From Streptomyces sp. GESEQ-4 (GTDB lineage: Bacteria; Actinomycetota; Actinomycetes; Streptomycetales; Streptomycetaceae): DNA of 64,000 bases. The stretch covers positions 62,001 to 126,000 of the forward strand of contig NZ_JAFFSU010000007.1 of the NCBI RefSeq assembly GCF_017948455.1. The letters are read 5' to 3'. Position numbers and translations under genes: made by a program. This document shows, in pieces, positions 3,959 through 49,741 of this stretch (within the stretch, counting starts at the first letter, position 1; the number at the start of each line of letters is the position of its first letter). Below the pieces are notes generated by a model. It had not been told where the DNA came from. It saw only the letters and a list, made by a program, of their open reading frames with translations, and did not search any database.

Positions 3959-4371
3959 GCCTCGGCGCGCTGGTCGACGAGCACGCCGAGGCCCTGGAGG
4001 CGGACCTGCTCCGCCACTACGGTGTCGACCTCCTCGACTGGCACCGGGGCCGCCTCTCCTCCCGCCGCCTGCGCGTCCTGACGGAACACCTGCCCGCCGA
4101 CTCGTCCTTCGCCCGCGCGGTCCATGGCGAACAGGCGGACTGGTCGGTCACGGACCATCTGCTGGCGGCTGTCGTCGACCAGCTCGCGGTCGCCAACTGG
4201 ATGTTCGCGACAGCCAACCGGGACGAGGACACGGAGCCGGCGCCTTATCCGGAGCCGGTGCCGCGACCGGGGGACGGCAGTTCCGAGGACCCTGAGCAGG
4301 AACCTCGGCCGACTGCGGAGCAAGGGGCGTCGGCAGCGCAGATCGTGGCCTTCCTGAGTTCACCGAGTTGA
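3668..4371 (+). CDS. Tail assembly chaperone, -1 frameshift fusion (GT-like) product
   Basis: Slipping one base back at the GGGGG run joins about 94 residues of the short chaperone to about 140 residues encoded in the -1 frame, giving a product of about 234 residues. The extension begins RLSLGALVDEHAEALEADLL, continues with GVDLLDWHRGRLSSRRLRVLTEHLP and ends in a Pro/Glu-rich tail before FLSSPS. That resembles the T-domain extensions of siphophage chaperones, including actinophage ones. Conserved-looking coding bias continues across the join in the new frame. The extended form is expected to be the minor product. Confidence 0.7.
3946..3952 (+). promoter_or_regulatory. Candidate slippery site for programmed -1 frameshift
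   Basis: The sequence is G-GGG-GAA when split by the zero frame, just before the TGA at 3956. The P-site tRNA on GGG can re-pair perfectly with GGG one base back. The A-site pairing (GAA to GGA) is imperfect, so this is not a textbook heptamer. Its place at the end of the short chaperone, with a long open -1 frame starting here, makes it the best candidate. Confidence 0.6.
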
Positions 4372-4384
4372 GAGGAGCCAGTGC

Positions 4385-5248
4385 GTGGCTGAGGACATCA
4401 AGGTCCTGGTCGAGAGGCTGACCGCTCGGGTCTCGACCCTGGAGGGCACGGAGAATTTCGCCGCGCGCTTCAAGGCACAGTTCGCGGACGCCTCGCGTGT
4501 TCCGACGGAGTTCAAGGAGGCGGTTCAAGGCGAGATCGCCGCCTGGAAGGCGCAGCAGGACGCCGCGCAGAAACCCGTGGACGCCAAATGGGTCGCCGAC
4601 ACTGTGCCGGTCACGGGCGTGAAGCCGGAGCTCACCGGGCTGAACCTGGCAGGGAACCTCGTCAAGGTCGAAGGGAACTTCCTGGCCCTCCAGGCTGACG
4701 TGATCAAGGTCGACGCGATCTTGAAGGACTTTGCGCTCAACAGGATGGAGACCAAGCGCACGGTCGAGCAGTTGAAGGCGCTGAACCTGGCCGGCCAGAC
4801 GGACACCAAAAAGGCCGTCATGGACATGGTCGACCCGGTGAACATGCTCAAGCGGATCAGGGACCTCGAAGAGGCGACGAAGAAGAGCGTCGGCGCCATG
4901 CAGCAGCAGGTGGACGGCGCCCACGCCAAAGCGAACAAGATCCGTGAACTGCTCAACCAGGAACCGGGTCTGCCCCGGATGCGAAGAGACCTCGTCAAAC
5001 TTGAGAAGAGCGCGGCTTGGGCGAAGAACCGGATCGAGAAGCTGACAGGTTCGAAAGATGCGGCGACGGACCAGACCAAGAAGCGGCAGGGCGGTAAGGA
5101 CATACCGAACGTCCAACAGTTGGAGCGCCAGGAGAAGCAACTCAGGGCGACCATCGTGAGGTTCGTCCGCCTGGTGGAGTTGGCCGCCCCCGAGATGAAG
5201 TCGTTTTCCAGTCAGATAAGCGGGATCGAGCGGGAGTTGCAGAGATGA
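4385..5248 (+). CDS. Coiled-coil protein of the tail module
   Basis: 287 residues, mostly heptad-like helix (VLVERLTARVSTLEGTENF, then long Lys/Glu/Ala/Leu stretches, then KLEKSAAWAKNRIEKLTG). It has no signal peptide or membrane segment. It sits between the chaperones and the tape measure gene and its stop overlaps the tape measure start (ATGA at 5245-5248), so the two are coupled. It could be part of a split tape measure or an internal tail component. I recognise no named family. The codon use has more A-ended codons than the surrounding genes, which may reflect a phage origin. Confidence 0.65.
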   Translation: MAEDIKVLVERLTARVSTLEGTENFAARFKAQFADASRVPTEFKEAVQGEIAAWKAQQDAAQKPVDAKWVADTVPVTGVKPELTGLNLAGNLVKVEGNFLALQADVIKVDAILKDFALNRMETKRTVEQLKALNLAGQTDTKKAVMDMVDPVNMLKRIRDLEEATKKSVGAMQQQVDGAHAKANKIRELLNQEPGLPRMRRDLVKLEKSAAWAKNRIEKLTGSKDAATDQTKKRQGGKDIPNVQQLERQEKQLRATIVRFVRLVELAAPEMKSFSSQISGIERELQR

Positions 5249-16370: not shown

Positions 16371-17231
16371 ATGCTGCCCTGGAAACGAGTGCTCAGACCC
16401 CTGACCGCGCTGCTGCTGACCGCCACGGTCGCCCTGGTCCCCGCCGCCGCGGTTCAGGCCGCCGAGTCCCCCGACAGCGGTTGGAACAACTACTCCTGCA
16501 AGCCGTCCACCGCCCACCCCCGCCCCGTCGTCCTGGTGCACGGCACCCTCGGGAACTCCGTAGACAACTGGCTGGGCCTCGCGCCGTATCTGAAGAACCG
16601 CGGATACTGCGTCTTCTCCCTCGACTACGGCCAACTCCCAGGCGTCCCCTTCTTCCACGGCCTCGGACCTGTCGACAAGTCGGCCGAGCAGCTGAAGACC
16701 TTCGTCGACAAGGTGCTCACCGAGACCGGCGCCACCGAGACCGACCTCGTCGGCCACTCGCAGGGCGGCATGATGCCCCGCTACTACGTCAAGTTCCTCG
16801 GCGGCGCCGCCAAGGTGAAGGCCCTCGTCGGCATCGCCCCCAGCAACCACGGCACCGACCTGGGCGGCCTGACCCACCTGCTGCCGTACTTCCCGGGCGC
16901 CGGGGACCTGCTCACCACCGCCACCCCGGCGCTCGCCGACCAGATCGCCGGCTCCGCCTTCCTCGCCAAACTCAACGCGGGCGGCGACACCGTCCCCGGC
17001 GTCAGCTACACCGTCCTCGCCACCAAGTACGACGAGGTCGTCACGCCGTACCGGAGCCAGTTCCTGAGCGGATCCGGTGTGCGCAACGTCCTGCTCCAGG
17101 ACCTGTGCCCGCTCGACCTCTCCGAGCACGTGTCCATCGGGCTGTTCAGCCGGATCGCCTTCCACGAGGTGGCGAACGCCCTCGACCCGGCCCGCGCCAC
17201 CCCGACCACCTGCGCGTCGGCGGTCAGCTGA
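16371..17231 (+). CDS. Secreted triacylglycerol lipase (alpha/beta hydrolase)
   Basis: 286 residues. A Sec signal peptide covers about residues 1-30 (two Arg/Lys, then LTALLLTATVALVPAAAVQA). PVVLVHGTLGNSVDNW is the oxyanion-hole region of bacterial lipases. GHSQGG places the catalytic Ser at 130. Later Asp and His (VVTPYRSQF region and LSEHVSIG) complete a triad. Two or three Cys pairs suggest disulphides, as in Streptomyces extracellular lipases. AAGGAGA lies seven bases before the ATG. It is convergent with the monooxygenase gene, with a strong hairpin between them. Secreted fat hydrolysis is the likely role. Confidence 0.9.
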   Translation: MLPWKRVLRPLTALLLTATVALVPAAAVQAAESPDSGWNNYSCKPSTAHPRPVVLVHGTLGNSVDNWLGLAPYLKNRGYCVFSLDYGQLPGVPFFHGLGPVDKSAEQLKTFVDKVLTETGATETDLVGHSQGGMMPRYYVKFLGGAAKVKALVGIAPSNHGTDLGGLTHLLPYFPGAGDLLTTATPALADQIAGSAFLAKLNAGGDTVPGVSYTVLATKYDEVVTPYRSQFLSGSGVRNVLLQDLCPLDLSEHVSIGLFSRIAFHEVANALDPARATPTTCASAVS

Positions 17232-17289: not shown

Positions 17290-18300
17290 TCAGCGGCCGT
17301 GCCGGCCACCGCTCACCGCGCGCCGGCGCACCGACGCGAACAGGGCCGCGGCGCCCAGCGCGAGGGCCGCCGCGCCGCCCACCGCGATGTAGGCAGTGCT
17401 GCTGTCGCCGCCCGTCTCGGCCAGGTTCTCCGAAGCGCCGGCCGCCTTCGGCTCGTTGGCGGCGGCAGAATCGGCGACCGGTTCAGCGACCGGCTCGGTG
17501 GCCGCCTCGGTGGCCGGCTCCGCCGACGTACTCGCGTCGTCGTCGCCGTGACCGTGGTGCTCGACGGTCGACTTGTCGGCACCGTCCTCGATCTGCTCCT
17601 CGGACGGGGCGGACGCGGACGGGGCAGGGGCCGCGGAGGAGTCGGCGGCGGCCGGGGCGTCGCCGCCGCCGAAGGTGACGTCCGAGCAGGAGTAGAACGC
17701 CTCCGGGCTGTCCGAACGCTGCCAGACCGCGTACAGCAGCTGCTTGCCGGAGCGCTCGGGCAGGCTGCCGGAGAACGTGTAGTAACCGCCTGCGGCGGCC
17801 GGGTCGGTGGCCGTCGTCACCGGGTTGTCCAGGTCCAGGTCGTCCCAGGCCAGCGGCTGCGCCGGATCGTAGCCGGGCCTGGTGATGTACACCTTGAAGG
17901 TGCCCTTGTGCGGGGCCGTCACACGGTACTTGAAGGTGTACGACCCACTGCTCACGCTGGTCGCGGGCCAGTCGGCGCGGGCCAGGTCGAGCCCCTTGAA
18001 CGCCTCGTTGTTCGCGCTGCACAGCTTGCCGTCCGGGATCAGCGCCTGGTGCCGCCCGTTCGCGTCGCCGATGCGTATGCCGTTCCAGTCGTACAGCGCC
18101 TGCGTGCCGCCGGCCGCGACCGCCGCCTTGCACGCCTCGGACTTCGGGCTCTCGGGCCCCTCCGCGTAACACTGCGAGACCCGGCTGACCGGGTCGCCCA
18201 TCGAGCCGTGCGCGGACGCGGGCGCGGCGGCCAGCGCGGTCAGGGCGAGCGGGGCGATGCCGACGGCTGCGACGGTGGCGACCTTGCGGCGTGCGGGCAT
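17290..18300 (-). CDS. AA10 lytic polysaccharide monooxygenase with LAXTG sortase signal
   Basis: 336 residues from the ATG at 18300 after GAGGAG. The signal peptide ends APASA, leaving His31 as the first mature residue (HGSMGDPVSR), the copper-binding histidine brace of AA10 enzymes. The domain runs to about residue 210 (AFYSCSDVTFGG) and includes LYDWNGIRIGDANG and KYRVTAPHKGTFKVYIT. A Ser/Ala/Pro/Glu-rich linker with the His cluster VEHHGHGDDD follows. At 293-297 LAETG precedes a hydrophobic helix and RRR, the layout of class E sortase substrates. The enzyme should therefore be bound to the cell wall and act on cellulose or chitin at the surface. The substrate is not decidable from sequence. 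Confidence 0.85.
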   Translation of the reverse strand: MPARRKVATVAAVGIAPLALTALAAAPASAHGSMGDPVSRVSQCYAEGPESPKSEACKAAVAAGGTQALYDWNGIRIGDANGRHQALIPDGKLCSANNEAFKGLDLARADWPATSVSSGSYTFKYRVTAPHKGTFKVYITRPGYDPAQPLAWDDLDLDNPVTTATDPAAAGGYYTFSGSLPERSGKQLLYAVWQRSDSPEAFYSCSDVTFGGGDAPAAADSSAAPAPSASAPSEEQIEDGADKSTVEHHGHGDDDASTSAEPATEAATEPVAEPVADSAAANEPKAAGASENLAETGGDSSTAYIAVGGAAALALGAAALFASVRRRAVSGGRHGR

Positions 18301-18472
18301 GACGGAACTCCTCGGAACGGTCACTGGATCGATGGGCCGGAACCCGTGGGGGGCGATCAGCAAGCTAGCCCCGGATGACCGTGAAATCGCCTGCTGGAGG
18401 CGGGGGAGGGAGATCCTTATGGTCGCTTTAAGGGAGTGTTCGGACTGGGATCAGGTAGCTACGGTTCGAGAC

Positions 18473-48402: not shown

Positions 48403-49029
48403 ATGCCCACCCAGACACCCACACGTACCTTCCGCCGCCGCGCGGGCGCCACTGTCGTCCTCACCGCCCTCACCGCGGCGGGCGCGTCATGGGTGGCGGC
48501 GCCGACGGCGTCGGCCCAAGGGGAGAACGGCGACATCAGGATCCACAGCGCGGGCGTGCCCTTCGGGGACTCGAGAGACGAGCCGGTGGTCTGCAGGTTC
48601 TATCTCGACGCCGTCAACTTCGACGTCCTCCCCGCCATCGCCTACACCATCACGCCGCAGCCTCCGCTGCCCTCCGCCGCCACCGTCGCCGGCACCATCC
48701 AGCTCGGCGGGGGCGCCGGTCACACCGACCAGCTGAGGCTCGCGGACGGACAGTACAAGATCACCTGGATCGTGCTGGGCGCCCCCAAGGAGAAGGTCTT
48801 CCGCGTCAACTGCCGCGACCGCAACCGCATCGAGGACAACCACCGCGCCGACGGGGCCTGGGGGCCGGGCGACCACCGCGGCCCCCGGGGCGGTGTGCAC
48901 GCGGGCGGCGGCGGTCTCGTCGACAGCGCCGCCGCGTTCGCGCCGGTGACCGGCGCGGCGGCCGTGGTCGCCCTCGGCGGCACCATGTACTTCCGGATGA
49001 ACCGCCGCCGGCCCCATGGTGCCGCGTAG
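48403..49029 (+). CDS. Secreted protein with C-terminal membrane helix, sortase partner
   Basis: 208 residues. The signal peptide is about residues 1-38 (RRRAGATVVLTALTAAGASWVAAPTASA). The mature part is beta-rich with Cys at PVVCRFYLDAVNFDVLPAIAYTI and FRVNCRDRNRIEDNHRADGAWGPG. A Gly/His-rich linker leads to a C-terminal helix (AAAFAPVTGAAAVVALGGTMYFRM) and NRRR. This is the layout of a surface-anchored protein, but no LPXTG or LAXTG motif is present; FAPVTG is the nearest. The sortase gene overlaps its 3' end by 14 bases. Confidence 0.75.
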   Translation: MPTQTPTRTFRRRAGATVVLTALTAAGASWVAAPTASAQGENGDIRIHSAGVPFGDSRDEPVVCRFYLDAVNFDVLPAIAYTITPQPPLPSAATVAGTIQLGGGAGHTDQLRLADGQYKITWIVLGAPKEKVFRVNCRDRNRIEDNHRADGAWGPGDHRGPRGGVHAGGGGLVDSAAAFAPVTGAAAVVALGGTMYFRMNRRRPHGAA

Positions 49030-49741
49030 GCGCAGACGCAGGCCCTGGCACCGGACGCGCGCCTACCGCCTGACCAGGACGGCCCTGCTCGCGGCCGTCC
49101 TGGTCACGGTGGGGGTGCGGTGCGAGAAGCCGGACATGCCGGTGGCGCCGGAAGGAGCCGACGGCCCGGCCCCCGTGGCGGCCCCCGCCCCGTCCCGCCC
49201 CACACCCTCCGCTCACCCCGTCCGCGCCGAACGCCGCCCCACACCCACACCCACACCCACACCCACGCCCCCGCTCCGCCCGCTGCCCCGGTCCCGGCCG
49301 ACAACCCTCCGCATCCCGTCCCTCGGCATCGACGCCCCGGTCATGGGCCTCGGGCTCGACCCGGACCGGGAACTGGAGACGCCCCCGATCGACAAGCCCA
49401 AGCTCGTCGGCTGGTACGAGGGCGGCCCCACGCCCGGCGAGCCCGGCACTGCCATCGCCGTCGGCCACCGCGACACCAGAACCGGCCGCGCCGTCTTCGC
49501 CGGGCTGGCCGAGGTGAAGCCCGGCAAGCCGATCGAGGCGCGGCGCGCGGACGGCCGTACTGCCGTCTACACCGTGGACCGGGTCAAGGTCTTCGACAAG
49601 GCGGACTTCCCCGACAAGGAGGTCTACGGCCCGGCCAAGCGCCCGGAACTCCGTGTGATCACCTGCGGTGGCCTCTTCAGCCGGCGCTCTGGCTACACCA
49701 GCAACGTGGTGGTCTTCGCCCACCTGACCGCCACAAAGTGA
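49016..49741 (+). CDS. Class F sortase-like transpeptidase
   Basis: 241 residues from an ATG inside the previous gene. An Arg-rich start is followed by a membrane helix (LTRTALLAAVLVTVGV) and a Pro/Thr linker encoded by a CACACC repeat. The sortase barrel starts near LRIPSLGIDAPVMGLGLDPDRELETPPIDKPKLVGWYEGGPTPGEPGTAIAVGHRDT, with the His in GHRD. RVITCGG puts the catalytic Cys at 217, and the Arg lies in SRRSGYTSN. Class F sortases are typical of actinobacteria and lack a well-known target motif. The upstream gene is the obvious substrate candidate. Confidence 0.85.
   Translation: MVPRRRRRRPWHRTRAYRLTRTALLAAVLVTVGVRCEKPDMPVAPEGADGPAPVAAPAPSRPTPSAHPVRAERRPTPTPTPTPTPPLRPLPRSRPTTLRIPSLGIDAPVMGLGLDPDRELETPPIDKPKLVGWYEGGPTPGEPGTAIAVGHRDTRTGRAVFAGLAEVKPGKPIEARRADGRTAVYTVDRVKVFDKADFPDKEVYGPAKRPELRVITCGGLFSRRSGYTSNVVVFAHLTATK

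Follow-up and report, generated by a model that had tools for sequence, protein, structure and literature searches.

A CbpC/ScLPMO10D orthologue in Streptomyces sp. GESEQ-4, probably anchored to the cell wall, carries a conserved histidine motif in its tether

Polysaccharide monooxygenases (LPMOs) whose copper is reduced while they idle can harm both themselves and what surrounds them, and an LPMO fixed in the wall of its own cell would face that problem permanently. Such an arrangement is suggested by a gene in the window – by which we mean the whole 64,000-nucleotide stretch of the Streptomyces sp. GESEQ-4 genome that was analysed – where a complete open reading frame of 1011 bp encodes 336 amino acids and a stop, with an AA10 domain towards one end, a sorting signal towards the other and a histidine-rich patch between them. 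What is this enzyme, where does it act, and what is the patch for? We consider it very probable that the protein corresponds, in this species, to CbpC/ScLPMO10D: an AA10 LPMO that depends on copper, is anchored by a sortase and oxidises C1 of beta-1,4-GlcNAc chains near the cell. The type is already known – for the orthologue, published work covers the structure, the attachment to the wall and the oxidation of chitin at C1 – and the enzyme is in itself an ordinary find; the modest lead is the motif in its tether.

An AA10 domain with an N-terminal copper histidine, followed by a linker, a histidine-rich patch, LAETG and a membrane helix, had been proposed in a first-pass annotation, and every one of these elements is present in the translation, together with a triple-arginine tail (Table 1). 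The LPMO_10 profile (PF03067) covers residues 31-208 with 199 bits against a cutoff of 23 and begins at the mature N-terminus, His31, after a signal-peptide-like stretch. The signal peptide opens with MPARRK, and all 80 relatives examined for it have an arginine pair somewhere in the 45 residues that precede the mature N-terminus (a stretch that can include residues before the true start); export by the Tat route is possible. Between the AA10 domain and LAETG runs a low-complexity tether of about 80 residues, which contains the histidine-rich patch, HHGHGD, at residues 248-253; a Pfam scan of the protein found no CBM. The convergent lipase has a homologue at 77 of 80 relatives' loci.

Table 1. 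Features of the AA10 locus, with positions in the window.
Feature	Positions	Strand	Basis
Convergent neighbour, secreted class 2 lipase / alpha-beta hydrolase	16371..17231	+	PF01674, E 3.6e-16
AA10 LPMO gene, 336 aa, CbpC/SCO1734/ScLPMO10D orthologue (almost certainly)	17290..18300	-	Translation, Pfam, PDB match, tree
GAGGAG, ribosome-binding-like (Shine-Dalgarno-like) sequence, 7 bases 5' of ATG	18308..18313	-	Read from sequence
Signal peptide, residues 1-30	18211..18300	-	RR near start, APASA end before His31
AA10 catalytic domain, residues 31-211	17668..18210	-	PF03067, E 1.2e-58; 7zjb, E 8.4e-107
His31, N-terminal copper-brace residue of the mature protein	18208..18210	-	Aligned with ScLPMO10D His34; invariant in A1
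His131, second copper-brace residue	17908..17910	-	Aligned with ScLPMO10D His134; His in 121/121
Conserved tether segment, residues 231-262	17515..17610	-	Alignment column entropy
His core STVEHHGHGD, residues 244-253, putative metal site	17542..17571	-	Conservation
LAETG sorting motif, residues 293-297	17410..17424	-	NF041528, 39 bits, cutoff 30
Hydrophobic membrane helix, about residues 304-323	17332..17391	-	Read from translation
RRR tail, residues 325-327	17320..17328	-	Translation, alignment

Evidence that the gene belongs with CbpC came from structure matches and from a tree. The top PDB match, 7zjb, spans residues 31-211 with 360 bits, the next best reaching 225 bits; its title in the PDB is 'putative secreted cellulose-binding protein', and it is ScLPMO10D, formerly CbpC, the product of SCO1734 of Streptomyces coelicolor (PMC10067821). 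The same work defined the LAETG-bearing AA10s as subclade A2. A relative in our set, L227, has a catalytic domain 100% identical to 7zjb, and the window protein matches it at 153 of 181 domain positions (~85%). In a tree of 27 domains, from which five more A2 loci had been dropped by the extraction regex, the window protein is one of 11 A2 domains, all of which group together (support 0.91) and separate from the A3-like and A1-like domains; the A1 and A3 labels rest on resemblance – for A3, to the description in PMC10067821 – and on this same tree, with CBM2 tails recognised by eye. The window gene is almost certainly the orthologue of CbpC/ScLPMO10D.

Conservation was assessed in an alignment of 121 sequences, 120 of them distinct, comprising the window protein and 120 relatives (with one duplicate, L136 = L057). 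Eighty near relatives, 79 from Streptomyces and one labelled 'Actinobacteria bacterium', are the best 80 of 425 matches, and two of the search patterns behind them were drawn from the tether, one being the histidine patch itself; this set therefore favours the motif. The other 40, more diverged, were hand-picked from a search with the catalytic domain only across 197 genomes of the order, 186 of which gave a match; 38 lie at 62-80% identity, one at 85% and one at 90%. Both brace positions are histidine in all 121 sequences (for His31 the extraction regex required H), and Tyr70, Asn73, Thr128, Arg195, Glu200 and Phe202 are likewise invariant. The Asn/Thr pair and the Arg-Glu-Phe second sphere of subclade A2 are thus present (N73, T128, R195, E200, F202), and the window protein has equivalents of ScLPMO10D Tyr73, Asn76, Arg79, Thr131, Ala132, His134, Arg198, Glu203 and Phe205.

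A second issue is where the enzyme sits. Besides the strep_LAETG family (NF041528), TIGR01167 recognises the C-terminus (18.8 bits, cutoff 15.9), and against Pfam Gram_pos_anchor the protein scores below cutoff. The motif cannot be ascribed to chance, because LAETG is kept in 112 of the 120 relatives, a near variant standing in five and none in three: LAETG in 79 and LADTG in one of the near relatives; LAETG in 33, close variants in four and nothing comparable in three (L128, L131, L134) of the diverged ones. Homologues missing the segment might have told against anchoring; among these 120 they are too few to refute it. Two of them, L131 and L134, both diverged A2 proteins, keep the histidine core, hydrophobic stretch and basic tail without any LAxTG, and may be held in the membrane rather than linked to the wall. 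In L036 (positions 4001-4963; Streptomyces sp. P3) the frame runs past the sorting signal into a different C-terminus, giving a mature protein of 403 aa, apparently through a frameshift, or an error of assembly, within the membrane helix.

The window protein has the layout of a class E substrate – LAxTG, hydrophobic helix, basic tail – and the genome contains 11 sortase-domain matches, of which three were scanned; two are class E above the NF033747 cutoff, the first matching SrtE1 (5cuw, E 1.8e-116) and the second 5go5/5go6 (E 1.1e-101). A sortase encoded in the window itself (49016-49741, plus strand) was considered as the anchoring enzyme and rejected: it is class F (NF033748, 209 bits, cutoff 166), lies about 31 kb away, and class E sortases occur elsewhere in the genome. 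Just upstream of it, the product of an open reading frame at 48403-49029 has no Pfam match and has the look of a secreted protein, with a hydrophobic stretch and an RRR tail at its C-terminus. Ten LAETG-like anchors were found in the genome, eight above cutoff, the window gene among them; the genome has eight AA10 matches, and among the seven C-termini read (L016 left out) LAETG occurs only in the window gene. CbpC is bound to the wall, and removal of its sorting signal releases it to the supernatant (Walter and Schrempf 2008, cited in PMC10067821). The window enzyme is therefore probably fastened to its own cell wall by a class E sortase. The wall anchoring by class E sortase put forward in the first-pass annotation stands, given the wall-bound orthologue and the class E sortases of the genome, with the qualification that the type is not new, subclade A2 having been described.

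At the level of sequence, orthology, active-site residues, anchor and sortases are established here; activity and localisation in Streptomyces sp. GESEQ-4, the sortase step and the natural substrate we infer. After export, cleavage following Ala30 would expose His31, which with His131 would bind one copper. A class E sortase would cut LAETG between Thr and Gly, linking the protein to peptidoglycan, and the catalytic domain, on its flexible tether of some 80 residues, would then oxidise C1 of beta-1,4-GlcNAc chains close to the cell, the target being chitin or a glycan resembling it on the hyphal surface.

What, then, is the natural substrate? Oxidation of polymer next to the cell, as first suggested, agrees with an orthologue that is wall-bound and oxidises chitin, and chitin only, at C1 (PMC10067821); a qualification is that no activity of ScLPMO10D was detected on isolated Streptomyces peptidoglycan (PMC10067821). 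Chitin, too, may not be the natural substrate, because in addition to that inactivity the isolated ScLPMO10D domain, though able to oxidise chitin, is a weak binder of it (about 20%), and CbpC was first described as a carbohydrate-binding protein that bound Avicel strongly and chitin less, and that was induced by both, cellulose included (PMC10067821). Control of the gene by SoxR was rejected: SCO1734, a candidate from RNA-Seq, failed complementation and was dropped by the authors of that study (PMC4146615).

A serious possibility, though rated at somewhat less than even, is that the real job of the enzyme is remodelling of the bacterium's own envelope (peptidoglycan or tip glycan) in development, with chitin oxidation only a proxy. 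The orthologue is encoded in the core of the chromosome, and its transcript becomes more abundant at sporulation (PMC10067821); LpmP (SCO2833), another chitin-active AA10, binds peptidoglycan strongly, and development is blocked when lpmP and cslZ are both absent (PMC9040799). A second arginine beside the catalytic glutamate (Arg76 here, Arg79 in ScLPMO10D), tentatively related by the 2023 authors to charged peptidoglycan and present in 26% of A2 (PMC10067821), speaks on both sides: it is found here and in 86 of 120 relatives, a figure from a set that leans toward close relatives, but is replaced by Asn or Ser in the other 34. The inactivity on peptidoglycan counts against a role in the envelope, as does the conserved Asn/Thr pair, which was associated by the authors with chitin activity (PMC10067821).

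The histidine-rich patch noted in the first-pass annotation proves to be a real, conserved motif in an otherwise variable tether. A strict core, S[TS][VIM]x[HN]xGHG, is present in 115 of the 120 relatives (78 of 80 near, 37 of 40 diverged), and the stretch around it is the best-conserved part of the tether: mean column entropy over the 121 sequences is 1.18 bits at 234-262, compared with 1.76 at 212-233, 2.39 at 263-291 and 0.60 in the catalytic domain. Ser244 and Gly250 are each kept in 120 of 121 sequences and His251 in 119; at position 248, 103 sequences have His and 17 have Asn. Third bases differ among the codons for the conserved Gly residues (at Gly250, GGC 65, GGG 42, GGT 7, GGA 6), and the constraint is therefore on the protein. 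Outside the core, histidine accounts for 52 of 8944 residues across those 115 tethers; inside it the share is 27%, partly by construction, because the core regex demands His/Asn and His. At least two His or Met occur within 12 residues in all 120 tethers, including the five without the strict core (L024, L088, L100, L120, L128), examples being DHSGMDMGG (L100) and SSMDMSHHDH (L120). A change from His to Met, seen in these two sequences, would be expected of a copper site. The motif appears to be undescribed: literature searches did not turn it up, and HGHG is absent from the text of PMC10067821. The available text of PMC8615602 discusses disordered LPMO tails at the C-terminus and the possibility of attachment to the wall, and contains no His motif; that of PMC9820598 and PMC13325158 added nothing further on the motif.

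How far the motif extends was gauged with a 38-residue tether query. Among 296 genomes of the class, sampled from 114 genera, it matched 21, and these belong without exception to the window's own genus. Of its 23 matches, 19 lie directly beside AA10 matches listed, and the remaining four (G020, G026, G036 contig 15, G037) lie beyond the matches listed. Within the genus 21 of 28 genomes match and seven do not; two of these, G001 and G035, have AA10 matches with an A2-like score (E 5e-74 and 4e-77), and it is possible that their tethers are too diverged or are without the motif. In the genome itself, inspection found the core absent from the last 160 residues before the anchor in the other nine anchored proteins. 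At the DNA level the HxGHGD pattern gave 26 matches, against four for the reversed pattern, and is therefore commoner than this control; twenty of the 26, translated in their own frame, look by eye like chance frames, and the window gene is among the remaining six.

Paralogous AA10 groups provide a further comparison. Among 25 A3-like loci (L219 and L221 unparsed), none of the 23 readable tails has LAETG or a His patch, no stretch of 12 residues containing more than one His, and five A2 copies returned by the same search all have both core and LAETG. An A1-type query gave 30 loci, divided by eye into 20 with a CBM2-like module, three with almost no tail and seven with CBM2-less tails (L167-L173); each of the seven has two to three His within 12 residues, and the five CBM2-less, tail-bearing A1-type enzymes in the tree form one group. 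His-rich tails thus occur in two AA10 groups – A2 and the CBM2-less A1-type – and are missing from the third, the A3-like. The A1-type patches read, for example, HTGHGAH or HAEHAGH (L014/L167 at G000:C1:995968-996837, and L168-L173). A hydrophobic stretch with a basic tail closes five of the seven proteins L167-L173, the exceptions being L172 and L173.

Because the tether motif is conserved, and by analogy with copper-binding CBM2 modules, we propose, tentatively and as a possibility rather than a likelihood, that the core S-T-V-x-H-x-G-H-G binds copper, and that this site serves to load, buffer or cap the copper of the active site, so that without bound substrate the enzyme would not generate reactive oxygen beside the cell's own wall. 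A2 enzymes would thereby have, without a CBM, an equivalent of the copper-binding CBM2, and the CBM2-less A1-type clade with tails would have it in a different form. The precedent is the Met-Met-His motif through which CBM2 modules in many A1 enzymes bind copper; its histidine is predicted to touch the catalytic copper, and as long as no substrate is present the motif protects the enzyme (PMC12703677). An AlphaFold2 model built from 45 similar rows has a mean pLDDT of 52.8 and a tether at about 30, at which docking of the tether is unreliable.

Possibly, though we would not call it probable, the motif has nothing to do with metal and is a site at which a protein partner docks or a protease acts. 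Conservation extends to a part unrelated to metal, P-S-x-x-x-I-x-x-G and the nearly invariant Ser244, as a binding motif would lead one to expect; AlphaFold2 places a short low-confidence helix at mature residues 204-212; and the asparagines at position 248 fit such a site. The near-invariance of His251 and the prevalence of histidine at 248 argue against it, however, and four of the five tethers lacking the strict core have more His or Met (L088, L100, L120, L128), L024 being the exception. Unlikely, finally, is a role chiefly as an adhesin, in which the protein, displayed on the wall, would bind polysaccharide and so hold hyphae to chitin or cellulose, its oxidative activity being secondary: the strong Avicel binding of CbpC and its induction by both polymers would suit such a role, but none of the 121 sequences departs from the brace or from the Arg/Glu/Phe second sphere, and the isolated orthologue domain oxidises the chitin that it binds weakly (PMC10067821).

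If the tether does hold copper, the motif bears on the copper supply and the true substrate of anchored LPMOs. In the anchored clade it offers a short, mutable target for asking how a surface-bound copper oxidase stays safe and metal-loaded.

Four known systems place the protein. ScLPMO10D (CbpC, SCO1734) shares its architecture, active site and LAETG; the catalytic domains are ~85% identical (measured against L227), whereas the tether has diverged, L227 – whose domain is that of 7zjb – having the core STIEHHGHGD and a tether shorter than that described for SCO1734. LpmP (SCO2833) is likewise a chitin-active Streptomyces AA10, tied to wall remodelling (PMC9040799), but belongs to subclade C according to PMC10067821, and the available text of PMC9040799 makes no mention of sortase. 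The A3-like membrane-tethered AA10s, represented in the same genome by L011/L197, have in common with the window protein the AA10 domain, long tail, membrane helix and basic end, and differ in the absence of LAETG and His patch noted above. The AA10s with copper-binding CBM2 (ScLPMO10C and other A1 enzymes) resemble it in bearing His/Met in the appended part; yet where those enzymes use the Met-Met-His of a CBM2, the window protein, which has no CBM, carries its histidines, and with them a putative copper site, in a low-complexity tether to the wall.
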